This document shows positions 4,659-52,962 of a DNA stretch of 64,000 nt, one piece after another (the stretch's first letter is position 1; the number at the start of each line of letters is the position of its first letter). A program made the translations under genes and the position numbers. Under the pieces are notes generated by a model. That model was not told where the DNA came from. It saw only the letters and a program-made list of their open reading frames with translations, and searched no databases. The stretch comes from Rosellinia necatrix (Eukaryota; Ascomycota; Sordariomycetes; Xylariales; Xylariaceae), in contig JAGYVD010000002.1 of the NCBI GenBank assembly GCA_021209875.1, positions 6,076,001 through 6,140,000 on the forward strand, written 5' to 3'.

Positions 4659-6746
4659 TTGGATGATGCTTGGGACTTTCTTGGGGATGGCGAATTTTCG
4701 ATCCCGTTAATGGAAGCCAATGGGTTTGATACGTCAAGGGTATTTCCGGAGGGCACACCACCCCTGTGCGAACACTGCCTTGCCCTTGACTTCAGGAGCT
4801 TAGGGCTAGTAGCGAGGGAAGAGTTTTATTTCCTGGAGATACGCGCTGGAGTATGTATCTTGTGCAGTTTGATTCTTGAACTTTGCGATGAATCGAATCT
4901 TTTCCGTCCCGACGACGCGGAAGCGGTGGAAATCTGGAGGGTTAAGGGTGGATTGGCTCTGCAAAGCAGGGGGACGCCGGTTTTATCTATCTATGGTACA
5001 CCATGTAAGACCATACGCAGCAAAGCAGCCGTTTCGACTTTACGCTGACATCTCTCCAGCCACCTATGCGGGTTTGGAGTCACAAAAACAACCTCTTCCA
5101 GTCGGGTTACCCAAACTTGCGACTATCGGAAGCCAGATGTATTTCATGGTTCTCAATCGATGGCTAGAGGATTGCGACAAGAACCACACGGGCTGTCGCC
5201 CAACAACATCCGAATTGTCTCTTTTTAGGACTCCGACTAGATTACTTGACGTCGGAGAAAAGGGCTCTCCAAGCGTTCGCCTCGTTGAGACGAAGAGCTG
5301 GGAGACATGTCAAGACCGGTGTCTCAAGTATATTGCTGTGTCCCATCCATGGGGCGAGCAAACCGAACACACCCATTATTGTACTACCCCATCAAATATT
5401 AGCCTTCACAAAGCCGGTATACCTACCGATATTCTCCCGAATACCTTCAAAGATGCCATTCAAGTCACAAGAGAGCTGGGAGTGCGATATCTCTGGATCG
5501 ACTCGCTCTGCATTGTGCAGGGAAAGGACGGTGACTTTAGCGAGGAGGCAATACACATGGAGACGGTGTTTTCTTCTGCATACTGTGTGATAGCCGCGAC
5601 ATGTGCAAGGGGCATGTCGAGCGGCTTCCTTGGGGCAAGGAACGACAGAAAGGTGATCAAGGCCGAGAAACCTGGGGAGTCCCCATTTTATATCTGCGAA
5701 TTTATCGACAATTTCCAGCGAGAAGTTATTGAGGGCCCATTGAACCAAAGAGGTTGGGTTCTGCAGGAAAGAGCGCTGGCACGGCGAACAATCTACTTTG
5801 CGAAAAGTCAGACCTACTGGGAGTGTGGCGAGGGTGTTCGATGTGAGACGCTAGCGAGAATGAGGAAGTAAGTAACCTCACACCATTAGAACCTAACCAG
5901 TCTTACATCCGACTAGGCGAGCCCTTACTAATAGAACCCCCCCCATCCAGCAACCAAGCCGACTTACTCGGCGATCCCAAATTCCCCAGGGTGGCAACCG
6001 AATCGACGAAGGGTGGGCGAATACGTCTGTACGAGCTCCTGTACAAGCAGTATTCGCGACTCCGCTTCACGAACATCTACGACCGGCCGCTCGCGATCGC
6101 CGGGATCGAGCAGCGGCTCATCCGCGCGTTCGACACGCAGGGGGGGTACGGCGTCTTCACGCGGTACTTCGGCCGGGGGCTGCTCTGGCAGCGCGACACG
6201 GAGTCGGCGCTGCCAGGGGTGATGGAGCCGATCCGGTTTCCGCGGCGGCCGCAGGCGTGCCGGGTGCCCTCGTGGTCGTGGATGGCGTACGAGGGCGCCA
6301 TCGCGTTCATGGACCTGCCGTTCGGCGAGATCGACTGGGAAGAGAGGGAGCTCCGCTCGCCCTGGGACCCCGCCCACCCGGGCCTGGAGTCGTCATCGTT
6401 GTCGTCGTCCCGGCCGAATAATAGCTCCAACTCGACTTGGCATACTGCTGATGCCAACGGAGGGGCTGGCTTGACGGTGATCGCGCGAGATTTCTCCGCT
6501 TCGGCGGACGCTTACCTTGTGTATGACAGAGGAGATAGACCGGATGATCATATAGTGAAGTGTGTTATAGTTGGGAAAAGGAAAGGGATGACGGAAACTG
6601 ACGGCAAACGAATTCACTACGTGCTGATTATTGCCCGAGAGCAGGGCAGCGGCCTTAATGTAGGGTATAAACGAATAGGGGTTGGTTCGTTACCCGGGAG
6701 TTTGATAACCTTGGAGGAAGCCGGTCTGCGAGTCCAAGTCTTATAA
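4659..6746 (+). CDS. HET-domain (heterokaryon incompatibility) protein
   Basis: HET domain proteins act in fungal non-self recognition and related cell-death responses. Exons are 4659-5004, 5060-5867 and 5951-6746. Both introns (5005-5059 GTAAGA with CTGAC branch; 5868-5950 GTAAGT with ACTAAT branch) close the frame exactly. An N-terminal Cys pair (LCEHC, then CILC) precedes the HET core: KYIAVSHPWG, RYLWIDSLCIVQG, METVFSSAYCVIAATCARG, and GPLNQRGWVLQERALARRTIYF. A typical C-terminal region with PSWSWMAYEG follows. No in-frame ATG sits at the left end; the exon starts after a TTAG acceptor at 4658, so upstream coding exists and may be the kinase. Base composition turns sharply GC-rich from about 5960 to 6420. 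Confidence 0.88.
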
Positions 6747-16246: not shown

Positions 16247-18388
16247 TTACGCTAATATAAACTCTCTGTCACCCTTCTCATCTGCCAAATCCTCCATACT
16301 ACACGCCGCCTTCACGACCGCCGGCGAGCAAAGCCGGTAGCGCCCGTCTACGTCTCCAGAAGCACGAAGCACATGCGACGTTGTCGCTCCTTGGAACTTG
16401 ACGACTAGATCCCCTTGCTGCAGACGCCCATCGGCGTATCCTATCAACCCGCCACTACTTGTGAACATTGTCCTATTGATAGAGAGCCCTTGCACGATGC
16501 GGTAGAATCCCATCGCCGGGGCAACTAGGCGGAACAGGCGCTTTTCCTCCTTGCCAACAGACGACCGCATCACATCGCCCCCCACACCCGGGGACAGGAG
16601 CACATCTAGTGTGGCATCGACGTCGGACTCTACGAGCGCCAGTACGTCAGCATGCCGTTGGTTATGATCACTCGCGTCCTTCAGGCGGCCGACTGCATAT
16701 TTTCTCAGGATGAGACTGAACTCTCCGTTCGGCGGCTCGGTAGCATCGAGTAAAGCACGGAAATCCGCGGATCCCGTCTCGAACGAGCGGAGGTGCTGTG
16801 TTGGGGCATAGGCAAGGAGAAGCCGGCAGAACGTCAGGAATATGGGGTTCTCGGGGGTGTCACGCGCGGCGAGATGGGTGTAGAATCGTCTTAAATACTT
16901 AATCCGTTGGGCACCGTGTCGTCTCGTCGCTAACTCGTACTCAACAGACTGAGGAGCCATAGCCATGAGGTCCCTCTGGATTTCAACCCGTTTCTGGTCG
17001 TCTACTGCAGCGTCTATGGTCCCATATACCCGGCCTTTTACCGTTAATAGAGAGAAATCTTCATCCGCCTTGGTACTGGGCCTGCGTTGGTCGACCGGCC
17101 CATCCCAATGCGCGTCGGCTCCGCGATACGCGTGATCAACAGGTAGACATCCGAGCGTACCAAAGAACTCCTCGGACCACCGGGGGTCAACGCTCCAGTC
17201 CGGGACCCACGATGGGAGATCTGTTCGTCGGGTGTCACTCCACACGTGATCCAGCGGCCATAGGGATGCGTCAAGTTGCATAACCGCCACGGTGGCTCGG
17301 GCGTAGATCACGGGGATGGGATCCGTATAGTCCGGGGTGGGAAAGGGTTTGCCTAGCTTTCGGGATACGCCGTGCAGCGCGAAGACTTTATCCCGCAGGT
17401 CCGAAGCGTATCGGATCCGCGTGTGATGCATCATTGTCGAGAGGCCCTGCTGGCTCATGCTATGGTTCTCTACTTTCTCAGCGGCCAGAGTGCCGGTATC
17501 CTCAGAGATCAGGTCCTTATAGTCGGAGTACGCGTAGTAGCAATTGATGAAATTTCGACTCCCCTTCGACCACGGATCAAACGACGTTTCGGCTAGCTCT
17601 AGCGCCCTGCAGAAGATCTGCCACTCCATGGTCTGATGCCCACAGAGGACCGTCGCGTGGCTGGCAAGAAGGAGCTCCTGTAGAGTCCACATCCTCTCGA
17701 ACCACGGCCGACCTAAGACACTCTCAATGATCTCAGTGACCACGGTGGGTTTCGATGATAAGTATTTGGCATCTAACTTCTCTCAGCGCTTGAGTCCTTA
17801 CGATGCACTTGGCACACGACAAAACAGAGCGACACTAGACGTGCCCGGACCGCACTGACCGCATTCTCTCATGAACTGCGCATTCGCCTCCGCCCTGGCA
17901 TCCTCGTAGGCGTCGTCACGCAACGCATAGATGCGCGCCAGATGGAGAAACAAGGCTTCCGTCTTTTCGTCGCCCTCGCCAAGCCAGGCCAACACGTCGA
18001 CGGCGCCTTCATATATGTCCCCCATCATCGCAACCTGGCTGTTGCGCTCCAGGACACCCTCCGGCGTCTGGTCGATGCAGATGCTGTCGACCCAGAGCAC
18101 ACGGCTTTTCGAGGTGCATCTCAGCTGCCTCAGCGCGGCGTCGCAGTTGGCGGTGATAGGCAGGGCGGATGAATCGATGTCGATGCTGTGAGCCTGGCTC
18201 GGCAGTCCCCATACGTACGACAGGGCTTCATATCTGGTTGCAGCCTGGGCGTCGCCGCCATTCCGGGGCTCTTCAATGTGGCACTCGACGAGAGAGCCAC
18301 AAAGGGGTGAGGCCGCTGACTCGGCGGGATGCAGAATCAATAATCTAATCTCCCTAGGGCCGCTCAACGCGCGGTGTCGATATGCCAT
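16247..18388 (-). CDS. HET-domain protein
   Basis: A second HET protein on the opposite strand. The N-terminal exon (18388 down to about 17800) carries YEALSYVWG, RVLWVDSICIDQ, and RNSQVAMMGDIYEGAVDVLAWLG. The second frame (17743-16247) carries GRPWFERMWTLQELLLA, LRDKVFALHG and LPSWVPDWSV, the usual HET order. I chose ATG 18388 (MAYRHRALSG) because the frame upstream lacks an ATG. The join at about 17744-17830 is not solved: the good GTAAGG donor at 17809 and the TTAG acceptor near 17770 leave the frame off by one. A different donor, or a one-base error, must be involved. The stop at 16247 overlaps a GTAAGT string, so a further 3' exon is possible. Confidence 0.85.
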
Positions 18389-19795
18389 AGGGTGTTTATA
18401 AGGGGGGGTCGAGTTAAAAGTGATGTGCGTGCCTTGCCAAGACCCAAGACCACCACTGTCTGCGGGTTCGCCTACCACCAGGCTAGTAACATCAATGCGA
18501 CTTAGTTTATGAGATGTATGTGGTTGATTCTGCTCCAATTACTAGCTTAGGAAAGAGAGGGAGCGTATCAGAACGTCGATTCGCCAGAATCATCTTGGGT
18601 AATGTAATCCAGGCCCCAATTGTAGGCCGGGAGAAACAAGTTGGTAATTGGTGGGGAAGGGGAGGGGGGGACTGAAGAGGGGCGATGGGGGCGCGAATAA
18701 GACGGAAATAGGGGCGACCTCCTCAACTTGCTTTGAAGGATGCATAACCACTAACTATCCAAACAGATATTCACACACCTGGTTCTATAATCTCACGCTC
18801 TCTTCGGTACCTATTAGTCCGGAAATCACCTATACCGTCTGATTTATTACCTTCTATAAGCATATCGGATGCCTGTTTTTTAGATCGCACAACATCGAAT
18901 TTTAAAAGTTTCTATGCCTACCCTCAGCGCATGGGATATACATAGCCATGTTATTCACGCGGAAATACTCGATACTAAGACGTCCGGTACTGTTCTCGAA
19001 CTGCAGCAATGATTTATCTCATATCCCATGATCCAATCAATGTTGATCGTGAATTTGAGTCTAACAACCCTCGACAGCGTCCCCCCCTGATGATGCGATT
19101 ATAATATCGTCGTAAAACTCACCCATATGTCGTTTACGCCTCGAACTACTAACCATACCTATATGATAGCTTCTGACCTTTTACTAACCAGTTCTAATAT
19201 GTGTCGCCTTATACTCCCTCTAGCCAGTCGAGTGGCGGCCATCTCACCCATTTCACCCCTGGCTCCCATAGACAACCTTCTCCTGGATAAACCGAGTTGA
19301 ACCAGGAAGCATATACTCAATGACCAGTTCAACCCGACCGCAGTTGGAGACCGCAAGCCCCGTCCGCCCGCTTCATTGTCATCGAATTCGGAACCAGCAA
19401 ACAGACCCCTTTATATCCATGTTCAACTCTACGATCGTGTGCACCCCGAGTCGGCAACGAGAGAGACCATGTCAGATCATTTGAGAATGTCATCCGAGTA
19501 ACGAGGTCAACGATCGTGGGGGTCAATGGGACAGGAAGGAACTCCAGCCTATAACCCGCAGGGTCACAGTGGCACCTAATTCATATAGCCAGGGGGGGAT
19601 GTCAACATGGGAGATCTCTACTCCGGTACATCGAGATGCACGACGCATACACGCCTATACTATACTATATACTGGGCCCCCGGCCCTCGCCCTCGCCAAA
19701 CCACGCCACACAGGCCTCTCGCCCGCCCAGTCGTCCCCCCCTCCACAGTCAATACCCGTTACCACCGCCTCGCCAACAGTCCGTCCCCCCCCACG
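18389..19795. other. intergenic, no gene seen
   Basis: Contains the HET promoter side and AT-rich sequence of no clear origin. Short open frames only. Confidence 0.55.
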
Positions 19796-41369: not shown

Positions 41370-42143
41370 GAGAAACTAAAATAATATGAATTTTGGACTG
41401 CTTTAGGACTTGAGCATTTAGTGGCGTTATAGGAGCACAACAATATCTGCTATCGCAACGGGCAAGGCGCCCCGCTGTCATGAAGGCCTATCGATTCGTC
41501 TATTGCCGGGCAGGATACACAGCTTGACCACTATGGCCCCTGTAGGTTAGGGATCTGTTAGATCCGTTTTCTTTTCCCTCTGTTTTATCCCATAGCTTAT
41601 GTATGCGTGTGCAAATGGCTAAATGACGGGAAAGCATAAAAGATGCGAATGTAGGGAAAATACATGAATTAGAGATATGATCAATCATTTATGAGAGCTA
41701 AGAGTTGTATTGATTCCCCTAGTATACGCCCCCATACCGTACATATGTTCCCATCAACCGTCGCTTGCTCTGCGTAACTTCTCAATCTTTGCGTTTCACA
41801 TCAAATGGGTCGCGGCACAAGTTTGTTGAGAATTGTAGGTCCACGGGAGACGTACGTACATAAATACATACATTAATATATTCAAGCAATGAATTGAACT
41901 TGTAGTGTCTAGATCCTATCGTGTAGCATTTCGGAATTTTACCATTTCCCCTTTCAACACTAGTTTGCTCTGCACCGGATCGATATCTTCTATATACTCT
42001 GTTAGTTTGCTCCTAGTAATTGTTTGCAAAGGAAATTGTTAAAACAAACAGAGCAAGGCAGAGAAAAGAAAATCCTAAATGTAAATAAGTATGTCCAATA
42101 GACGCGAAGAAAAAAAAAGAAACGGAAAAAAAAACAGATTAGC
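41370..42143. other. spacer between CAF-1 gene and ncRNA array
   Basis: 3' region of the CAF-1 gene and AT-rich sequence. No coding potential. An A-rich stretch at 42107-42134 is the T-run terminator of the first array member when read on the minus strand. Confidence 0.6.
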
Positions 42144-42256
42144 TAGCCACCGAGGGAATCGAACCCCCGGGACCTACCGATATTACATAACGAACGCTGA
42201 GTAAGTATATCAGGTAAAGCACGCTTTTTATCGCTAGGACCGTACCAACTCGGCCA
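42144..42256 (-). ncRNA. tRNA-like Pol III RNA gene, copy 1 (subfamily A)
   Basis: Internal A box TGGCCGAGTTGG matches TRGCNNAGYNGG exactly, and B box GGTTCGATTCC matches exactly. The 3' end folds as a T-arm: GGGGG, loop TTCGATT, CCCTC. A closing stem pairs TGGCCG with the 3' TGGCTA strand. The 7 nt upstream of the A box do not pair with the 3' end, so it is not a tRNA. TATA-like TTTTTTATAT lies at 42289-42298 and T runs follow within 20 nt downstream. The internal stem GGTCCTAGCGATA pairs with TATCGGTAGGTCC with two mismatches. Confidence 0.75.
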
Positions 42257-42386
42257 TTTGTTTTCATCTTAGGGGGGGTAGGCTAACATTTTTTATATGT
42301 TCCCCTGTCTGCCCCCTGTCTGCCCCCTCCTGGTACGTGGCAAGGTTCACCAAGAAAAAGTATAAAAAAAAAAAGGAAAAGATTGT

Positions 42387-42496
42387 TAGCCACCGAGGGG
42401 ATCGAACCCCCGAAGCTTAACGATGTTAAGTAAGTATACTGGTAACTATACTGTCGCTGTACGCTATACTTCGCTAGGCCTGTACCAACTTGGCCA
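42387..42496 (-). ncRNA. tRNA-like Pol III RNA gene, copy 2 (subfamily A)
   Basis: A box TGGCCAAGTTGG, B box GGTTCGATCCC. Closing-stem position six is A-U here where copy 1 has G-U, a compensated change. TATA-like TTTTTTATAT at about 42529; T11 terminator at 42364-42374. Confidence 0.75.
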
Positions 42497-42794
42497 TTCG
42501 TCTGAATCTTAGGAGGTCTAGGTTAACATTTTTTATATTTGTCGGGTAGAACCATCTCACTACCAACCACCAGTCGCACTACAGTGGCTGTAGTACTACA
42601 ATTCACATATAGGCCCAAGAAGCCTTGAAGGATTCAGGAATCAATTGTTCACCCATGTGAGCCCTAAATACTGCCTATCGCTAGTCTATCTATTCGCTCT
42701 ACAATATAACCAGCTGGTAATATTCTTCTCCCTTCTTCTCTCTCCTCGTACGTAAGCGATGTTTGCCGGGAAAAGGGATAAAAAAAAGAAATTC

Positions 42795-42905
42795 TAGCCA
42801 CCGAAGGAATCGAACCCCCGAAGCCTAACGATGTTATGTAAGGATACTGCTAATTATGTTTTCGCTGTACCGCTATACTCCGCTAGGCCTGTACCAACTC
42901 GGCCA
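42795..42905 (-). ncRNA. tRNA-like Pol III RNA gene, copy 3 (subfamily A)
   Basis: A box TGGCCGAGTTGG and B box as in copy 1. The internal stem AGGCCTAGCG pairs with CGTTAGGCTT over ten positions. TATA-like TTTATAT at 42941-42947; T7 downstream at 42781-42787. Confidence 0.75.
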
Positions 42906-43213
42906 TTCACCTTATTCTTAGGAGGTAAATGTTAACTTTCTTTATATCCCTCCCTCTCCTTCCTTCACTTTATACCTTGCCTTCCCTTCTAGTGCCTCTG
43001 ACATAATATGATAGCAAGGTTTACTGATAATGGTAGGCGTTAGAATGTTGACGAGAGATGAAGATTCAATTTAGCTATCTATCTCTCAGACTAACTAGTA
43101 TACAGTGATTCCCAGAAGCCTTCCGAAATGAAGGCTTCCCCAAGGAAGGCTTCCCGAAGGAAGGCTTCCGACGGGATGGCTTCACAGATAAAAAGGATAA
43201 GAAAAAGAATGGC

Positions 43214-43324
43214 TAGCCACCGAAGGAATCGAACCCCCGAAGCTTAACGATGTTAAGTAAGAATACTGCTAATTATGCTTTCGCTGTACCGCTATACTTC
43301 GCTAGGCCTGTACCAACTCGGCCA
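43214..43324 (-). ncRNA. tRNA-like Pol III RNA gene, copy 4 (subfamily A)
   Basis: A and B boxes perfect. It differs from copy 3 in the internal stem, where G-U becomes A-U, and has one C-A mismatch. TATA-like TTTATAT at 43361-43367; T5 downstream at 43202-43206. Confidence 0.75.
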
Positions 43325-43737
43325 TTTGTCTTAATCTTAACATAGCATATATTAACATTCTTTATATCCTTTCCTCTCTGTCTCAAGTCTTCTATCTGTT
43401 GTTCTACGTTCTCCTTTGTTACCTAACATAGTTCTAGCTGCGGGAAGTTTTCTTCATATGGTAGCTGCTGGCTATTCCATGCTATTTGTGAGGCCAACGT
43501 ACAAACGTACGAACGCACGTAAACCTCTGGAAGGAAACCTCCCTTACGGAAGGCATCTTGGGACCTTGATGTATGTTGGTTGGCTAGTTTGAGAGACCAG
43601 TAGTAAAATTAAATCTCCACCTCTCTAATATCATGATGCCTACCACTATTTTATAAGCTCGGTCCTATATCACTAGTGTTTGAACAAAATGGTAATATGG
43701 ATGGAAAATGGTGGGTGAAAAAAAAAAGAGAAAGTGA

Positions 43738-43849
43738 TAGCCACCGAGGGGATCGAACCCCCGAAGCCTAACGATGTTAAGTAAGGAATATTGATAATTA
43801 TACAATCGCTATACCGCTGTACCCCGCTAGGCCCGTACCAACACGGCCA
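43738..43849 (-). ncRNA. tRNA-like Pol III RNA gene, copy 5 (subfamily A)
   Basis: A box has one change (TGGCCGTGTTGG); B box intact. The upstream element is weaker (CTATCTATAT near 43870). T10 downstream at 43718-43727. Confidence 0.7.
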
Positions 43850-44062
43850 ATAGTCACTAGAACTAATTCTATCTATATCTCCTACTCCGCCCCCCTGCTA
43901 CTCTGGGCCACCTTAATATCTATGGTACGTAATATCATTTCATACCTACTCGCCTATATTTTATTTATATTATGTAGTTCCACTAGACTACTTTATTTCT
44001 TCCTTTATTGAGAAAAACAGATATCATATTTACACTTGTTAAAAAAAAAAAAAAGAATGTGA

Positions 44063-44174
44063 TAGCCATCGAGGGGATCGAACCCCCGAAGCCTATCGAT
44101 GTTGAGTAAAGAATATTGATAATTATACAATTGCTATACCGCTATACTCCGCTAGGCCTGTACCAACACGGCCA
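44063..44174 (-). ncRNA. tRNA-like Pol III RNA gene, copy 6 (subfamily A)
   Basis: Close relative of copy 5 with the same A-box change. Upstream TTTCATATAT near 44194; T14 downstream at 44041-44054, the longest terminator of the set. Confidence 0.7.
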
Positions 44175-45246
44175 ATAGGTCTCATGCCAATCTTTTCATA
44201 TATCCCCCATCCCACAATCATCCAGAGACCGGAGACGCCCGTCTAGGTTTCCGCCACGTGGCAAAACAAGGATGTTTTGTGATGAAAGGAATCAAGCTCT
44301 TGAATCTAAAACAACCGACCACTGCATAACCCCGATAGGGGAGATTTCAAGGAAGATTATTGATTACTAGGTGTCGGTGGGCTTGTCCACTTCCTTAGGT
44401 GGCCGTTGCTGTGTTTCTGGCCCCTTTGCGTTGTCCGCCTGAAGGGTTTGACACGCCCGCGTATACTAAGCGCGGCGGATTTCCAAGTTCTACATCCGTG
44501 GCCATCTCTTAAGTGAGATGATTAGCCTGGTCACCGTGGGAGTTCTGAATTGCGACCGAAAAGAAAGAGAGAAAGGCCAGAAAATGAAGTCTGCTCGTTT
44601 TCGGGTCGGATTTTATTTGGCGAACGGGTTCAACAATTAAGTAGGCAGGCAGGCGCCGCTCCAGTTAGCGACTACGAGGAGATGGATGCGTATGAAGTTG
44701 GGGTTAGTTCACTCGCCGATTGATTGCCTGCCGGAATGTTCGCCCGGGACGGGTCGGCCCGCTCCTTTCGCTCGACGCACGCCCCATCCATCCTGGAACT
44801 AGACCCCTTTTTTCCATTATCGCCGAACGTCGTGTAGCACTACCCCGTATTCGCTGATCATTTCTTCCCGCGAAATCCTCTCTCTCCTAAGAGGCCGGGT
44901 GCAATGAGAAATTTCTAACTGATTGTTTCGAGGCTTACTGAAATTCATATCGCTGTTTTCAAGTATGTAAAGAATGCTGCAGTATATGTGAAGGGAGCCA
45001 CATGAGACTCTTGCTTATTGGTATAGCTACGGCCACTTCCTATATTCTTAACTTCAAACGTGGCTTTACACAATTATACCTACCAGGTCTTTCTTGGTCA
45101 GATACATGAGGCGATCGGGATAGAGTAAAGAAATTCTTCTGCATGGCAATCTTGACCAAGGCACTAGCTCGGTATTGGTTTCGTATCCGATTAATTTAAA
45201 TAATGAATGATAAGATGAAAAATGATGAGAAAAAAAAAGAATATTT
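44175..45246. other. spacer separating the two subfamilies of the array
   Basis: About 1.07 kb, the largest gap in the array, holding the promoter of copy 6. No gene or further array copy seen. Composition rises in GC between 44380 and 44900. Confidence 0.55.
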
Positions 45247-45364
45247 TGACCGTCGGGGGAATCGAACCCCCAGGCCTAATGATACTGGGTAACAATGCTG
45301 AATAATAATCATATTTTCGCTAGATCGCTAGGTTCAGTACCGCTAGGCCATTCCAATACGGCCA
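45247..45364 (-). ncRNA. tRNA-like Pol III RNA gene, copy 7 (subfamily B)
   Basis: A box variant TGGCCGTATTGG and a second A-box-like motif TGGCCTAGCGG 15-20 nt on. Closing-stem pair seven is G-C here, against G-U in most copies. Upstream CTATATTTCC near 45387; T9 downstream at 45230-45238. Confidence 0.72.
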
Positions 45365-45932
45365 GTAGGTGTAAGATCGAAAAAGATCTATATTTCCAAC
45401 AACGAAGTATCGGAAAGCTGAGTTAGTCTCTGTTGTTGCAGCTTCGGGGGCTTTTTTAAGTTTAGGTCATTATAACCTACTCGATGGATTTGTAGGCGAA
45501 TTAAAACCCTAAGGCCTAGAGATACCTAAGGAAAGGACACGTCGGCATTTTGTTTGTTTCTTAGGTCATACTAGCGTAGCTAGCAGCTCTACGAGTAAAC
45601 GAGGTTTTGATCATTCCACGCCCGCTTGGCTTACCATCATTTATCTCCCGCCGCAATGTTGTCGCGGAACTGAGCCCCAGGCTCTGAATCTCCACCAGCT
45701 ACGGCACAAACTACTGTTTGTGATCTAAATCAGAGGTAGCTATGCAGGGTATGAGGACAAGTCTTTTCATTGAAGAAGATAATTCATTTATTGAGCTGGT
45801 ACAATGAAAATTAGAGGCTAGGGACAGCATCAACTATTAAGTACTTATTATTTACTTACGTAGGGGGCGCACTATAAGAAACATGGTGTTATTCAAGATA
45901 GGGGGAACTGAAGTGAAAAAAAGAGAATGTTA

Positions 45933-46048
45933 TGGCCACTGGGGGAATCGAACCCCCAAGCCTAACAATACTGAGTAACGATGCTGAATAATGATATTTT
46001 CGCTAGATCGCTAGATTTCAATACCGCTAGGCTATTCCAACATAGCCA
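45933..46048 (-). ncRNA. tRNA-like Pol III RNA gene, copy 8 (subfamily B)
   Basis: The most diverged 5' strand (TGGCTATGTTGG), yet the closing stem still pairs with AGTGGCC through U-G and A-U pairs. TATA-like TTTATAT at 46071-46077; T7 downstream at 45916-45922. Confidence 0.7.
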
Positions 46049-46124
46049 ATAGGGCTAATACTTAGATTTATTTATATTCTTAAGGGTAGTCAGGCCAACA
46101 GCAACATATGGCAACCTCCCACAG

Positions 46125-46559
46125 CTATACAGCAATAACTCCCGCCGGGATTACATGTCCGCACCTGGCTTCAGGGGAGCACTCGGGTATTGTGGTAATT
46201 GCCTTGCGTTTACTGGGTGTGGTTTTGTCTGCTTCGGCGTCGTCGGGTAGCAAGGCTGACGTCATCAAAAGCCCTTCTCTTTCCGCGCGCAAGGCCTCGT
46301 TGACTTGGCGATCGATAGTGCCGGAACCGAGTAGAACGTCTAATGCCGTACGATCTTGTTTATGCACGTGTTCGCGTAGACGTTCCACCTCGTGCGACAT
46401 CCTATTAACTCGTTTGATAAAGACTTTGATCATGTGGACAATTCGATCTTGTGGCTTAGTGATCTTAGTTATTAGAATCCATGTGATTCTGCTGACTTCG
46501 TCTACTGAAGTTGTTCGGTCCGCAAGTGCAAAATCAGTACAGATGTCCTGAAGGCATAG
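46125..46559 (-). pseudogene. orphan exon resembling an NLR-type N-terminal domain
   Basis: An open frame of about 145 codons lies inside the ncRNA array, antisense to nothing. It starts after a TTCAG acceptor near 46552 with an upstream AACTAT branch-like string. It reads DICTDFALADRTTSVDEVS, ITKPQDRIVHMI and HEVERLREHVHKQDRTALDVLL, then ends in a Lys-rich tail. The pattern of an amphipathic helical domain with ALAD.TTS..EV resembles N-terminal domains of fungal STAND/NACHT proteins. No upstream exon is visible before copy 9, and no NACHT motif is present. It is probably a remnant cut off by the array, though a short real gene is possible. Confidence 0.5.
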
Positions 46560-46662
46560 TTATGTTATAAAAATACTTGGCCTCCCCGCTTCCCCGGATG
46601 CCTTCGGGGATGTACTCCGTCGGCTTTGACTAACAAAAAAAAATTAACAAAAGAAAAGGATG

Positions 46663-46781
46663 TTGACCATCGGGGGGATCGAACCCCCAGGCCTAACGAT
46701 ACTGAATAACGATGCTGAATAATAATGTTTTCGCTAGATCGCTTAGGTTTTAATACCGCTAGGCCACACCAGTACGGCCAA
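46663..46781 (-). ncRNA. tRNA-like Pol III RNA gene, copy 9 (subfamily B)
   Basis: Closing stem TTGGCCGT with ATGGTCAA (one G-U). It has an inserted base in the middle TAGCG repeat (TAAGCG). TATA-like TTTATAT at 46803-46809; T9 downstream at 46635-46643. Confidence 0.75.
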
Positions 46782-47252
46782 TAGGTGTTATTTCTAACAT
46801 TGTTTATATCTTCGGAGTGATTTGGTCACTGAACTTTATATCATACCGTGGCATAAAAAAGAAAAATAATTCTAAAATTCTATAGGTCTGCAAGACCAAC
46901 CAATCGCGGCACCTTCATATACGAAAGGCTCCTAGCACTCTCGAGGTTACCTTTTATTATGGCGGACAAGTGAAAATGACCATTATCGTCGCCGATTCCC
47001 TTCGCGACTTGGCCTGAAATAATCACTAACAACACTATGAAACCGTCATCGATGAAATGGAGGATGCTGTATTTTGCCCATTTATGGTAAATGCTAAGTC
47101 AAACGGCCGAGTTTACCGAAAGAATGGTTTGACAGAAATTGACGATGCATTACTTGTTGTTGGTCCTCTATGTTGTAAACAGCGATAAATATACTAGGCT
47201 GATTTAAATTAAGTAGAGATCGCTAAAAAGGGGAAAAAGAAAGGGGGGGATG

Positions 47253-47370
47253 TTGGCCATCGGGGGGATCGAACCCCCAGGCCTAACAATACTGAGTAAC
47301 GATGCTGAATAATAATGTTTTCGCTAGATCGCTAGATTTCAATACCGCTAGGCCACACCAGTACGGCCAA
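47253..47370 (-). ncRNA. tRNA-like Pol III RNA gene, copy 10 (subfamily B, best fold)
   Basis: Reference copy for the fold. Closing stem TTGGCCGT pairs with ATGGCCAA over eight positions. The internal stem GGCCTAGCGGTATTGA pairs with TCAGTATTGTTAGGCC over all 16 positions (G-U allowed). The T-arm is GGGGG, TTCGATC, CCCCC. The apical loop holds repeated CTAGCG. TATA-like ATTATAT at 47392-47398, 22 bp upstream; short T runs follow downstream. Confidence 0.78.
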
Positions 47371-47554
47371 TAGGTGTCATATTTAAACTTCATTATATTG
47401 TCGGAGTGGTCGGGGTCCAGAACACTACGTCTTGCCGTGGCATAATTAAAGCATCATGTAAAAAATTTATTTATTATTGCGATAAAGATGAATACACCAG
47501 TTGGGTTCAAACGACGGAAAGTTTTCTAAAAAAAAAAAGAAATGATAATATGTG

Positions 47555-47672
47555 ATGGCCATTAGAGGAATCGAACCCCCAGGCCTAATGATATTGGGTA
47601 ACAATGCTGAATAATAATGTTTTCGCTTGATCGCTAGATTTCAATACCGCTAGGCCACACCAGTACGGCCAT
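47555..47672 (-). ncRNA. tRNA-like Pol III RNA gene, copy 11 (subfamily B)
   Basis: The outermost closing pair is A-U here, where copy 10 has U-A. The T-stem keeps pairing with G-U (GGGGG with CCTCT). TATA-like ATTATAT at 47694-47700; T11 downstream at 47528-47538. Confidence 0.75.
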
Positions 47673-47849
47673 TAGGGGTCGTGTTTAAACTTCATTATAT
47701 TGTCGGAGCGGTCGGGTTCTGGAACCATATGGCTTGCCGCAGCCTGGGAAAACAAGCCATGTAAAAATCTATTTATCACTGCGATCAGGATCAATATAGA
47801 GGATAGATCCAAGCGATAAAAGGAATGTAAAAAGAAATGATGGTATATG

Positions 47850-47970
47850 ATGGCCATCGGAGGAATCGAACCCCCAGGCCTAATGATACTGAATAGCGAT
47901 GCTGAATAATAATCATATTTCCGCTAGATCGCTAGATTTCACTACCGCTAGGCCAAACCAATACGGCCAT
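47850..47970 (-). ncRNA. tRNA-like Pol III RNA gene, copy 12 (subfamily B)
   Basis: Outermost closing pair A-U, A box variant TGGCCGTATTGG. TATA-like TTTATAT at 47992-47998; T5 downstream at 47829-47833. Confidence 0.75.
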
Positions 47971-48149
47971 TAGGGGCCATATCTAACCTTGTTTATATTT
48001 CTAGAGTGTTCGAATTGTAGAACCTCGTGTCTCGCCGTGGTGCAGGTCATAAATCATGTAAAAAATCCATCAATTGGTGATATTAAGGTGAATATACTCG
48101 ATTTATTAAGATGACATGAAAATTGCCAAAAAGAAATGATAATATAATG

Positions 48150-48270
48150 CTGGCCATCGGGGGAATCGAACCCCCAGGCCTAACGATACTCAATAACGAT
48201 GCCGAATAACAACCATATTTTCGCTAGATCGCTAGATTTCGCTACCGCTAGGCCAAACCAGTACGGCCAG
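48150..48270 (-). ncRNA. tRNA-like Pol III RNA gene, copy 13 (subfamily B)
   Basis: The outermost closing pair is C-G, the third pair type at that position in the family. Internal stem GGCCTAGCGGTA pairs with TATCGTTAGGCC. Upstream TTTATGT at 48293-48299; T5 downstream at 48128-48132. This is the upstream-most member and the end of the array. Confidence 0.75.
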
Positions 48271-49890
48271 TAGGGGGGGGAGTCTAACGTTGTTTATGTC
48301 TGTGTCCCTTTCTCTGTTCGCACTCCTGGCCAAGGCGCGAATAGAGTTTCCAACCTCTGTCTGTTCATCAGAGCTTGGAGGATATTAGTCAGGCGTGTGT
48401 GCAAGACACGTAGTAGATCGGTATACAAACACTCTGCGTGTACATTAGGCATTAGGCCGTTAGTCCTCCTAGTCGCGCCTACATGGCCCTGCTAGGGCCA
48501 TGGGACATGTCTGATGAGCAGGGGATATGCGCGAGATGAACTCATGCTTGAAATCCAGGGGCGGTGGGTGAGGAAGTCCACAGATCGACGAGATTAGGAC
48601 GACCATTCTTGTGAAGTCGAATATATGGGCCATGAGATGGCGCTTCCATTTGGCTGGGAGAGTCGTATTTGGGGCCACTCCTGTTGGCACACGTCAGGGC
48701 CGAATGATACGTGCTAAAGTTCGGTGGTTAATGGTCCTACTGTGGTAGCCTATCGGGTTGCATTCTGCGTAGGTGTGTAGTACGGTTGGGTTCGGCAGCC
48801 TCGGGAGATCCGCAGCCACACCCGAGGACTCCGCCGAAACATGCCATGCAGGTAGCTAGCTAGTGTATTAGTAGTTGTATTAGTATTTGCAGTGTACACT
48901 GCACCGTAGCATGAATGTTGGAAATGGCTGAGCTCCGCAGTTAGGGCAGCGGCATGGGATGGCTACGTGGGGTTAATTAGGTACAGAGCCCTTGGACTAC
49001 TTATCCGAATCGGGCTGAGGAAAGGCCAAGAGGGGCCGTGCTATAATATCCGGCGGTTTTCTGTGTTTTCCCCGGGGAAATAAGATTGCGAAGCGATGAA
49101 TATGACGCACAGTACAGTACCAGTAAACAGATAGGTAGGTTACCTAGGTACCTTAGTTTAGGTGGTTAGTCTAGGTGGTTAGTTTAAGTGATTAGTTTAG
49201 GTAGCTACCTACACTAGGTATTATATTATAGGCTATGCATGTTACACGATACCTCGTCGTTGTCGATAGCCGAGCTTGAGTCACCTTCCATCGGTCGGTT
49301 TCGGACTATGATAGAAGTTATGTGACCATGAGCCCAGTCTTGGCTCAGTCTAAGCTCCGGCGAGGCGCGGCGTGGCTCAGATGAAGCCCCATCACATATG
49401 CGATGCATCGGTGATGTCTGTACACTAGGTAGGTGGTTCGTTGGTCCCCAAGCACACCTTAGGCAAATGTACGTGATCAAGGTACTGTGGCTGGCCAGCG
49501 GCGGTTAGCGAACGTCATGTCATGCTGTGGTGAACTGTGAAACACCGCCTCGAAACAGGAGCTGAAATCCCCCCTCTCGTCATTTGTAGAGTGCCGCAGA
49601 GCCGATCCCAGACGAGGGAGGTGCAGCCCCCAATTAATATCTGCTCATTAGGTAGCATGTAGCTGAGGCAGCCTACATTAGTTCAAAGGACGGCTGCAGC
49701 CCTTGGCTCCTATTCACATCATTCTCCAGCGCCGATACCATTCGAACTGTTTGGGGTGGAGGGAGGGGAGGGAGGGGGGGGGGCTGCCGTATGTTTCGGG
49801 TATGGACTGAGTAGTAAGTCAAATACTTTGCGAAGATGTCTGTCTATCTGTCTATGCCCCCAGATCCGAGCAAATATGGAATGGGCATAC

Positions 49891-50070: not shown

Positions 50071-51003
50071 GCATGAATCTTCTACTACTTACTGCCTAGG
50101 CATTGCAGTGAGCCTTGTCTTACCCGGTATTCCTTGTGGGTGGTTGGGATGGCGGCGAAGAGACCTAAGCCGGCTGTCGGCACGTACCTAGCTGGCGCAT
50201 TTAGAGCTCTCGGGAACGGCCTCTCCCCCGGTGCCGCCGGTACCGTATTGCACATTCCATGCCTCGTTACAGCCGCCAATCAGAAGCGCCCGTATCCGCA
50301 GGCCTGCGCAGGTCTAAATTTGAGTTGGCTCCACCTCGTTCTGCCCTACGCGACTTGTGGTGGGGAGTGTTCTTGTGTGTCTGTGGAGGTACATTTCTCC
50401 AGCTCTGCCACGAAAAGGGTACACGCTACTTCCCAAGACGGAAGGACAGCGGGTGGCTTGGCGGGGTTCTTCAGGGCAGTGACGCAACCCGGAGGTCTGG
50501 TACCCCCTAAACAGCTTCAGCTATGCAGGGTTGTTCCCAACCAACCCTGCCTCCCGTAGGCTGGGTCGACGGCTGGGTCGACGGCTGGGCACCAACCAAC
50601 AAGCAAGTGGCTTTGGAATTCGACCATTTGGTACAATAATAAGCCAATTCATCTCGCAAACAACATTTTCATAGTCGCAATTCAGGGTTTGTCTAATATC
50701 TGATCTCGTTTCGTTTCGTGTTCGTTTCTTTTTCTATCGTTTCCCATTGATTGCTCGACCCCCGAATATTTCGCTATTCGCCAGTTATTTGATATCGTCT
50801 GTCGGTCTATCATCCATCGTCTATCGTCCGCCGTCCATCGTCGCCCGTCGGTTCCGCCCTTCATTTCGACATCGACCTCGACTTCGACCCCAGCTTTGAC
50901 CCCAGCTTTGACCCCAGCTTCGACCTCGAATTGACCATTCGCTGCTTCGCCGTTTGTCTCTAGAGCCCCGACAGCCCAACTTAGATTGGGCCTCAACGCC
51001 ACA

Positions 51004-52962
51004 ATGCGCTCCCTACCGGCTGCGGCACTCCCACTGTCTTTGCTCTCCCTCTTCCCGACGGTGCTCGCGGCGCCGAACGAACCCATCGATAATGTGCTAG
51101 CCCGAGAATTGATGCGCCGTGCCGCGCCCGATGGCCCGTCCGGCAATTATGCGCCCGCCACCGTCGACTGCCCGTCAGAGAAGCCCACCATCCGGGATGC
51201 CGCCACGCTGTCGCCCTCCGAGGTCGCATGGTTGCAGAAGCGCCGTGCGAACACCATCGACCCCATGCTGGACTTCTTCAAGCGGGCCGGCATCTCCGGC
51301 TTCGACGCCGCCAGCTACATACAGTCCAACTCCCAGAACTTTTCTGTCGTCCCCAATATCGGCATTGCCATGTCGGGTGGTGGCTATCGTGCCCTGATGA
51401 ACGGCGCCGGCTTCATTGCCGCAGCGGATTCCCGGACCCCCGGCTCAACCAGTGCCGGCGGCATCGGAGGCCTCCTCCAGTCCTCGACTTACCTCGCTGG
51501 CCTGTCTGGTGGTGGCTGGCTCGTTGGGTCTATCTTCGCCAATAATTTTTCTACCATCCCCAGCCTGCGGGATGGTGAGCCCGGCTCGGCTCTGTGGCAG
51601 TTTTCTCGCTCCATCCTTGAAGGCCCCAAGGATAGCGGGCTTTCCATCTTAAACACGGCAGGGTACTGGTCCGATATAGCTGATCAAGTCGATGACAAGC
51701 GCGACGCTGGTTATGGCGTTTCAATTACCGACTATTGGTCTCGTGCTTTGTCTTACCAACTAATCAATGACAGAGATGGCGGCCCGAGCTATACCTTTTC
51801 ATCTATCGCTGACGCGGACCATTTCAAGAACGCCGACACGCCCATGCCAATCCTGGTCGCAGACGAACGTCACCCTGGTGAAACCATCATCTCCCTGAGT
51901 TCGACTGTATTTGAAATGAATCCCTGGGAGATCGGGAGTTTTGACCCGACTGTCTTCGGCTTTGCCCCCACCAAGTATGTGGGATCTAACTTTACCAACG
52001 GTGTTGTCCCAGATGATGGCCAATGCGTTCGAGGATTTGACCAGTACGGATTTATCATGGGGACGAGTAGCTCTTTGTTCAACCAGGTTCTGCTTCAGAA
52101 CCTCACGTCCAGCTCGCTGCCTGACATTATTACGGATGCCCTCACGTCTATACTTGAAAAGATCGGCCAAGACGAAAACGACATCGCCGAGTGGAGGCCC
52201 AACCCCTTTTATAAGTATCATCCGGAGAGCAATGGAAACGCGGACACTGAGCTCTTGACGCTCGTCGATGGCGGGGAGGATTTGCAAAACATTCCTCTGC
52301 ATCCCCTGATCCAACCCATTCGCGCCGTCGACGTCATCTTCGCTGTTGATTCCTCGGCCGACACCACGTACAGCTTCCCCAATGGAACGGCCCTACGCGC
52401 CACTTACGAACGCAGCCTGAACGAGATCGGTAACGGGACTAAATTCCCCGCTGTGCCGGATGCTGAAACATTCATCAACTTGGGTCTAAACCGGCGGCCA
52501 ACCTTCTTCGGTTGTGATACCTCAAATTTCACGTCCAGCGGCGGCGAGAACGTAAATATCCCGCCGCTGGTCGTTTACGTGCCTCTAACGCCTTACACGG
52601 CCTACAGCAATGCGTCCACCTTCGACCCGGCATACACGGACGACGAGCGCAACGCCTTCATCGAGAACGGCTTCAACGTCGCTACCAGGGGCAACGGAAC
52701 CCTTGATGAGCAGTGGCCCGCCTGCGCCGCTTGCGCCGTGCTCAGCCGCAGCCTGGAGCGTACCGGCACCGCCATCCCCGCAGCATGCCAGACCTGCTTT
52801 GACCAGTACTGTTGGAATGGCACGACGGATTCGACGCCCGTCACGAGCTTCGAGCCCCAGCCCCTCCTCGAGTTGTCGACTCTCAGCGCCGCCGTGAACA
52901 TCCGCATGGGTGGCCTTGTCTGGGCCGTCGTCGGCGCCGCCGGCCTCGCCCTTGCGCTGTAA
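51004..52962 (+). CDS. phospholipase B / lysophospholipase, GPI-anchored
   Basis: A secreted fungal phospholipase B of the cPLA2 fold (652 residues, one exon) that removes fatty acids from glycerophospholipids and lysophospholipids. I start at ATG 51004 ([17 protein letters not shown], a clear signal peptide); the frame upstream has no ATG. Motifs are DCPS near residue 56, SGGGYRA at 124-130, the nucleophile elbow GLSGGGW with Ser168, and the catalytic Asp in [12 protein letters not shown] near residue 422. Several NXS/T sequons are present. The C-terminus is a Cys-rich segment followed by a hydrophobic tail ([18 protein letters not shown]) typical of a GPI signal, so the enzyme is probably on the cell surface. 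The frame is intact and complete, unlike several other genes here. Confidence 0.96.

Follow-up and report, generated by a model that had tools for sequence, protein, structure and literature searches.

A probable family of tRNA-mimic RNAs encoded by RNA polymerase III genes in Rosellinia necatrix

A stretch of 64,000 nucleotides from the genome of the ascomycete Rosellinia necatrix (C2:6076001-6140000, hereafter the window) carries at 42144-48269 a row of 13 short elements, all on the minus strand. The row is part of a family with at least 34 copies in the nuclear genome, which probably are genes that RNA polymerase III (Pol III) transcribes into a mimic of transfer RNA (tRNA) with a specific hairpin module. 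Judged from the sequence, on which the family itself, its promoter plan and the conservation of its structure rest, this looks like an undescribed RNA family.

Each of the 13 elements was located individually on the sequence, as the sequence-only reading that preceded this analysis had claimed. It had put their length at 110-121 nt; the lower end of this range holds, but the longest element measures 119 nt. All 13 carry the A box and the B box that had been reported for them. The B boxes are of the GGTTCGA type, and the 13 boxes of this type in the window are all on the minus strand and all inside the elements. The reported A-to-B distance of about 90 nt fits only the first A-box-like motif, which lies 88-97 nt before the B box, since a second motif lies 73-83 nt before it. 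The statement that a 5′ acceptor strand is missing was wrong: GGCCGT at the first A-box motif pairs with ATGGCC at the 3′ end; of the four outer acceptor pairs, the first, second and fourth are formed in all 31 aligned copies and the third in 30, with one gap. With the acceptor stem so corrected, the conclusion that the array encodes a structured tRNA-like RNA family rather than tRNAs with introns or scattered short interspersed nuclear elements (SINEs) is supported. Each of the 13 also has a TATA-like box upstream and a T-run downstream, and there are 21 further copies in the genome beyond the array; neither the TATA boxes nor the further copies had been noticed before.

The copies in the window are listed here, with coordinates running from T(-1) to position 73 and bit scores from the family covariance model R1, for which all 13 were training copies:

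c1, 48151..48269, minus strand: T(-1) to A73; 119.3 bits
c2, 47851..47969, minus strand: 117.4 bits
c3, 47556..47671, minus strand: 120.7 bits
c4, 47254..47369, minus strand: 128.8 bits
c5, 46664..46780, minus strand: 121.6 bits
c6, 45933..46048, minus strand: 127.7 bits; outer P2 pair A-U in place of G-C (both sides changed)
c7, 45247..45364, minus strand: 115.8 bits
c8, 44063..44174, minus strand: 100.2 bits; RNA group-B-like, promoter spacing of group A
c9, 43738..43849, minus strand: 101.3 bits; RNA group-B-like, promoter spacing of group A
c10, 43214..43324, minus strand: group B; 98.7 bits; P2 not favoured in the predicted fold
c11, 42795..42905, minus strand: group B; 102.5 bits
c12, 42387..42496, minus strand: group B; 92.8 bits; P2 not favoured in the predicted fold
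c13, 42144..42256, minus strand: group B; 81.8 bits, the lowest of the 13

The genome (49.1 Mb, 12 contigs) was scanned with two patterns. The pattern GGTTCGATYCCNNNNNTGGYNA gave 29 matches, its reversed control 0. With one mismatch it gave 34 (controls 1 and 1), namely the 29, three further family copies and two others (C3:4076534 and C10:3423680) that were rejected as chance matches by eye. The pattern of the 5′ half (GCCTAGCG, 55-85 nt, GGTTCGA) gave 32 matches and its control 1; among the 32, L145 (C5:2773921) was rejected, its sequence being not family-like and without a model match. Both patterns combined give at least 34 copies, which is a lower bound. The 5′ pattern with two mismatches was excluded from this count, having 60 matches against 40 in the control; one of its matches, C2:4992402, is a one-mismatch match.

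Besides the 13 copies in the window, there are clusters of three at C2:1.787M, four at C10:2.309M, two at C9:1.669M and two at C1:1.356M, and ten single copies (one on C1, three on C2, two each on C3, C5 and C8). Inside each of the five clusters all members have the same orientation. The B box is present in 34/34 copies, as are the TGG of the D-loop and the TTCGAT of the T-loop. Mean identity is 0.77 in the core (496 pairs, 32 copies), 0.565 in the upstream flank (75-200 nt) and 0.564 in the downstream flank (40-140 nt), with 0.572 for shuffled upstream sequence and no separate downstream shuffle. The flanks of c1-c7 lie slightly above the shuffled level (0.579 and 0.593 versus 0.561), and for nine copies at nine sites the values are 0.78 in the core, 0.575 upstream, 0.593 downstream and 0.574 shuffled.

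The covariance model R1, built from 31 copies, sets family copies apart from the ordinary tRNAs of the same genome: the 13 window copies score 82-129 bits and three copies outside the training set (L129, L147, L012) 85-102 bits, whereas among 22 ordinary nuclear tRNA loci the top score is 21.4 bits. Relatives were sought with R1 in 39 viral-contig and 15 bacterial or archaeal stretches that carry the 5′ motif, with nothing convincing (best 12.9 bits, E 3.8), and likewise in one viral-contig stretch with the 3′ motif. The transfer-messenger RNA (tmRNA) gene of Escherichia coli scored 11.2 bits (E 0.36).

The promoter comes in two arrangements. Counted from T(-1), the best TATA-like hexamer lies at -27 to -31 in 24 copies, at -35 in L006:1174 and at -41/-42 in the nine copies of group B (c10-c13, the three at C2:1.787M, L012 and L034:1501); in L011, L030 and L147 the hexamer matches only 5-of-6. 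A boxes and T-runs were scored in 32 copies, L129 and L147 being left out, and the best A box has 8 or 9 of the 9 scored positions in 32/32. In group B the better A box is on the acceptor strand itself (9/9 copies, 8-9 of 9 positions); in group A it lies 14-15 nt further in (19/23 scored), with ties in c6 and c9 and the opposite in c8 and L034:1762. TATA and A box are 41-42 bp apart in all nine copies of group B and 41-45 bp apart in 18 of these 19 group-A copies; in L006:1174 the distance is 49 bp. TATA and A box thus shift together, so that their distance stays near 42 bp despite two A-box sites. Copies c8, c9 and L034:1762, in which a group-B-type RNA goes with group-A spacing, look like intermediates. 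A T-run of at least four starts 4-20 nt past position 73 in 32/32 copies, which with the internal A and B boxes gives the makeup of a type-2 Pol III gene.

For comparison, 22 ordinary nuclear tRNA loci were inspected; eight loci on contig C12, which looks mitochondrial, were set aside. A TATA tetramer is present within 70 bp upstream in 11/22. Its distance ranges from 4 to 67 nt and falls within 36-48 nt in six of these loci, and no common place is apparent. In Pol III genes with a TATA box, the start is set about 28-30 bp downstream of it; transcripts of group A would then begin on or directly beside the acceptor stem, and those of group B would have a leader of some 10-13 nt. The TATA boxes of the window copies are:

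TATA-like element CATAAA of c1, 48293..48298, minus strand: -29
TATA box of c2, 47992..47997, minus strand: -28
TATA box of c3, 47694..47699, minus strand: -28
TATA box of c4, 47392..47397, minus strand: -28
TATA box of c5, 46803..46808, minus strand: -28; equal match at -60
TATA box of c6, 46071..46076, minus strand: -28
TATA box of c7, 45387..45392, minus strand: -28
TATA box of c8, 44197..44202, minus strand: -28
TATA box of c9, 43872..43877, minus strand: -28
TATA box of c10, 43361..43366, minus strand: -42; equal match at -27
TATA box of c11, 42941..42946, minus strand: -41; equal match at -69
TATA box of c12, 42532..42537, minus strand: -41
TATA box of c13, 42292..42297, minus strand: -41

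The predicted fold consists of an acceptor stem of 6-7 bp (GGCCGT/ATGGCC), a D-loop of 8-9 nt with an invariant TGG, a hairpin, P2, and a T-arm, the stem of which has 6 bp if nt 48-66 is counted. P2 opens with GGCCTAGCGG(TA) paired with (TA)TCGTTAGGCC and occupies the place of D-stem and anticodon arm. Position 73, the discriminator position of tRNAs, is A in 32/34 copies and G in L129 and L147. T(-1) pairs with A73 in 29/31 aligned copies and the pair breaks in two, so that position 73 may act as a discriminator base. The anatomy is laid out here for c4:

5′ acceptor strand GGCCGT, 47363..47368, minus strand: partner 47255-47260
Stemless D-loop ACTGGTGT with the invariant TGG, 47355..47362, minus strand
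Second, better A box TGGCCTAGCGGT, 47344..47355, minus strand
5′ strand of hairpin P2 GGCCTAGCGGTA, 47343..47354, minus strand: partner 47280-47291
3′ strand of hairpin P2 TATTGTTAGGCC, 47280..47291, minus strand
T-arm, 47262..47278, minus strand: 5-bp stem, loop TTCGATC; B box 47265-47275
3′ acceptor strand ATGGCC, 47255..47260, minus strand: then A73 at 47254

Pairs were counted on an alignment of 31 copies, from which L012, with its duplicated T-arm segment, and the later found L129 and L147 were left out; P2 pairs beyond the first 12 were not counted because MAFFT misplaces part of the middle region of group B. The 24 pairs of the three helices are paired in 94.7% of 721 cells, against 37-57% in slid registers. 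Six pairs are changed on both sides, a number reached by 0/500 shuffles. The measures besides this one were reached by 0, 6, 3 and 3 of 500 shuffles, among them 11 cells changed on both sides (6/500) and a covariation score of 0.196 (3/500). Thermodynamic prediction gives acceptor and P2 both a probability above 0.5 in 26/31 copies. The mean z-score of folding is -2.5, with some group-B-type RNAs no more stable than shuffled sequence (c9 z 0.1, L034:1501 z -0.5).

Twelve aligned copies have a 9-nt D-loop. In all of these but L016, the base added before P2 is matched by one added before the T-arm, with which it pairs (A-T, G-T or G-C), so that both strands carry the insertion. The 5′ side of P2 varies in length through TAGCGA repeats and the 3′ side keeps TTAYTCARYATYG-like units. 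For a 13-nt direct repeat of the 3′ arm, only 15/33 copies reach significance by themselves (L012 left out), so that it supports growth by modules just in part. In group A, neither the acceptor strand nor the TGG of the D-loop is covered by the better A box, and in no copy does a promoter box include the 3′ acceptor strand, yet these are among the most conserved positions. Conservation beyond the promoter boxes supports a role of structure in addition to that of the promoter.

In the scheme that we propose, the A and B boxes would be bound by TFIIIC, TFIIIB would occupy the TATA box some 42 bp upstream of the A box in use, and Pol III transcription would stop in the T-run. The product would be a tRNA mimic of 110-130 nt in which acceptor stem, T-arm and the stemless GG D-loop form a tRNA elbow and P2, a long hairpin partly made of repeated modules, substitutes for D-stem and anticodon arm. 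From elbow and stem one would expect that RNase Z cuts after position 73 and that CCA is added; RNase P would trim the longer leader of group B, the start of group A lying at or near the acceptor stem. The tRNA-like half may serve stability or docking to a tRNA-handling protein. P2 would then be the specific, non-decoding module; with no anticodon arm in the predicted fold, we take the RNA not to decode.

Several points weigh against this proposal. All copies are paralogues of one genome and, therefore, the pair counts are not independent. Acceptor variation is mostly one-sided (G-C to G-U). Column pair 6-133 fails in 5 and column pair 7-132 in 9 of the 31 copies, and one control register, slid by +1, counts more cells with changes on both sides (13) than were observed (11). 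Acceptor and P2 are not favoured by the thermodynamic prediction in 5/31 copies (c10, c12, c13, L002:1499, L034:1501), which make up 5/8 of the aligned group-B copies, and the canonical register of the T-stem exceeds 0.5 in 21/31 and is at or below 0.5 in 10, a shifted stem competing in several. Since GGCC occurs four times, a D-like hairpin GGCC...GGCC could pair as well (98.4% of cells pairable, one pair changed on both sides, no shuffle control); it was rejected as the main fold at a predicted probability of at most 0.33. The TATA test covered 55 nt with eight hexamer variants picked after seeing the copies and had no shuffled control, and c5, c10 and c11 each contain a second hexamer that matches equally well. 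L012 (L012:1394-1522, at C2:0.898M) has a partial tandem duplication before the T-arm, with AGGCTTCGGGGGTTCGA twice, and looks structurally damaged, the only such copy among those read. Transcription, processing, partners and role, finally, are what we infer, and as regards the role this must be counted here, too.

The family shares with canonical tRNAs (RF00005) the A and B boxes, an acceptor/T stack of about 12 bp, a T-loop TTCGATY that falls under the tRNA consensus TTCRANY, and the GG of the D-loop. It differs by the hairpin insert, by the near-fixed TATA and by a predicted fold without D-stem or anticodon arm. It is very improbable that the copies are tRNAs with a large or misplaced intron, as the tRNA-like B box and T-arm might suggest. 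ARAGORN called 0 tRNAs in the window; with introns of up to 120 nt it called 2/34 copies, but with different anticodons, Val-AAC and Ala-AGC. Rfam 15 at the gathering score, a check that the sequence-only reading had named, gave 0 matches over the window. A relaxed search of 42000-48400 gave only chance-like matches and short ones to tmRNA models (at most 16.7 bits); these matches, to RF00023 and RF01850, cover little more than the T-arm. Neither search had an RF00005 row, although the relaxed one keeps the best of a clan and could hide a weaker tRNA match. Altogether, ARAGORN and Rfam recovered no D-stem and anticodon arm with one anticodon, and the predicted fold has neither arm, a common one not having been sought systematically.

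The tRNA-like domain of tmRNA is described in the accessible text of PMC3968760 as having an acceptor stem, a T-arm, a reduced, stemless D-loop and a long helix at the place of the anticodon arm. From the pair counts, and in 26/31 copies from the predicted fold, the family has the same order of acceptor, stemless D-loop, long helix and T-arm, and its layout appears to be that of the tmRNA domain (RF00023). Unlike tmRNA, it is encoded by nuclear genes with Pol III boxes and measures 110-130 nt, and it has C3-G70 in 30/31 aligned copies (one gap) instead of G3-U70, which marks tmRNA for alanine (PMC3968760, accessible text). The tmRNA mode of ARAGORN recognised a tag frame in 0/34 copies, and a genome search for SmpB (PF01668) gave 0 matches with a control positive in 10/14. 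Because both SmpB and a tag frame recognised by ARAGORN are missing, we did not file the family as tmRNA.

Vault RNA and the rodent 4.5S RNAs are, as far as the available descriptions go, likewise Pol III RNAs of about 100 nt. In vault RNA, too, the A and B boxes are internal and the ends pair; we know of no mimicry of acceptor and T-arm in vault RNA or in the 4.5S RNAs. The genome gave 0 matches to TROVE/Ro60 (PF05731), the protein partner of Y RNA, though its control was positive in only 1/14, and 0 to the shoulder domain of the vault protein MVP (PF11978), though its control was silent. WEIRD RNA of Magnaporthe was rejected as a counterpart, being in the accessible text 1.1 kb long and linked to a retroelement (PMC2104539). 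A retroelement-primer function was considered for group-A ends: the complement of the group-A 3′ end plus CCA, with at most one mismatch, had 8 genome matches (control 2). As 4/8 lie on copies of the family itself, there is no sign of a primed element family, and the idea was rejected for these ends.

In Neurospora, also a filamentous ascomycete, Pol III produces milR-1 from a gene that has TATA-like elements but no predicted A or B box, and milR-4 arises from a tRNA-containing transcript that needs RNase Z and adjoins true tRNAs (PMC3547838, available text). Pol III, TATA-like elements, hairpins and the link to tRNA are thus common to both fungi and, together with the long imperfect hairpin predicted in several copies, they would suit Pol III precursors of microRNA-like RNAs, in which Dicer cuts P2 and the tRNA-like end is a by-product of the promoter or a signal for RNase Z. 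We regard this as rather unlikely. The helix after the D-loop measures only some 10-12 bp before internal loops follow in many copies, and the 5′ arm of P2 differs between copies in both length and sequence. Conservation of the acceptor strand and of the D-loop GG also speaks against it, as a microRNA hairpin requires neither. No tRNA-mimic fold is described for milR-1 or milR-4 in the available text of PMC3547838. It is improbable as well that the copies act as DNA, that is, as rows of TFIIIC/Pol III sites at chromatin boundaries with the RNA irrelevant. tRNA genes are known as boundaries in yeasts, and here 13 promoters stand in one row within a 6-kb stretch whose sole open reading frame (ORF) of at least 120 aa, with 147 aa, has no Pfam match. 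However, 10/34 copies are single, and the boxes include neither the 3′ acceptor strand nor the greater part of P2, in both of which some pairs are changed on both sides.

A/B boxes, many copies and tRNA-related ends would also be found in a tRNA-derived SINE family, a reading that had already lost ground and is now hardly credible. A SINE copy starts where its transcript does and brings no upstream promoter along. A TATA box upstream of the transcript would not be retroposed, yet a TATA-like box lies at a near-fixed distance in 34/34 copies (three with the 5-of-6 match); this and flanks at the shuffled level argue against retroposition, target-site duplications not having been searched. Furthermore, clusters keep to one strand, and the copies end with a conserved acceptor strand and T-run, with no further shared body. 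AfuSINE2 of Aspergillus has, according to the available text, Pol III boxes and tRNA-related sequence like the family, and in addition target-site duplications and a tRNA-unrelated region (PMC5063351), whereas in the family the unit stops with the acceptor strand and the T-run, and a TATA box precedes it. That we see an old tRNA-like gene whose copies are in decay and resemble one another only through gene conversion is quite improbable. The spacing of c1-c5 (300, 298, 302 and 589 bp), as after tandem duplication, and the duplicated T-arm segment of L012 would fit; against this, the TGG of the D-loop and the TTCGAT of the T-loop persist in every copy, and the core of the nine-site set stays at 0.78 while the flanks are near the shuffled level of 0.574.

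The array is flanked by a gene for CAF-1 subunit B (WD40 propeller, 39075 onwards) and a lysophospholipase gene (50986-52962). The lysophospholipase shares 97% identity with a protein of Rosellinia necatrix, while all further matches, mostly from Xylaria, stay at or below 83%. In the region of c1-c5 (46664-48269), c2-c5 have by eye some sequence before the TATA box in common; together with the spacing of c1-c5, this looks as if a 300-bp unit had been tandemly duplicated and one copy lost. A short tandem repeat of GAAGCCTTCC-type units lies between c10 and c11 (43108-43190, minus strand). Elsewhere in the window, 4876-5871 encodes a fragment of a HET-domain (heterokaryon incompatibility) protein, which ORFs at 16247-18538 resemble by eye; the scanned ORF 16247-17743 has no Pfam match. 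Contig C12 carries mitochondrial-type tRNAs at 71-86 kb and at 186 kb, two of them duplicated (71544-71692, 186278-186426), and may be a large mitochondrial genome that includes a repeat, unless the duplication stems from an overlap in the assembly.

A search of open-licence literature (titles and starts of abstracts) returned no description of such a fungal tRNA-mimic family. A screen for conserved RNA structures in fungi lists 17 structures, and 'tRNA-like' is absent from its main text in the part accessible (PMC8216456). The literature search did return work on Neurospora milR-1/milR-4 and on the tRNA-related SINEs of Aspergillus, neither of which, in the available texts, has the plan of the family.

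It is tempting to go further, and we put forward as a tentative possibility that ascomycetes have an undescribed nuclear class of non-decoding tRNA mimics. Such RNAs would combine a tmRNA-type domain, a TATA-assisted Pol III promoter with a moved A box, entry into the tRNA pathway (CCA addition, perhaps charging or contact with eEF1A or the ribosome) and a repeat-built hairpin for a dedicated partner. If the tRNA-mimic reading is true, tmRNA-type architecture would arise without trans-translation, and one would have to ask which tRNA enzymes take a body without an anticodon arm. The genes would also be a natural experiment in promoter geometry, in which the A box relocates in the RNA and the distance to the TATA box stays nearly constant.

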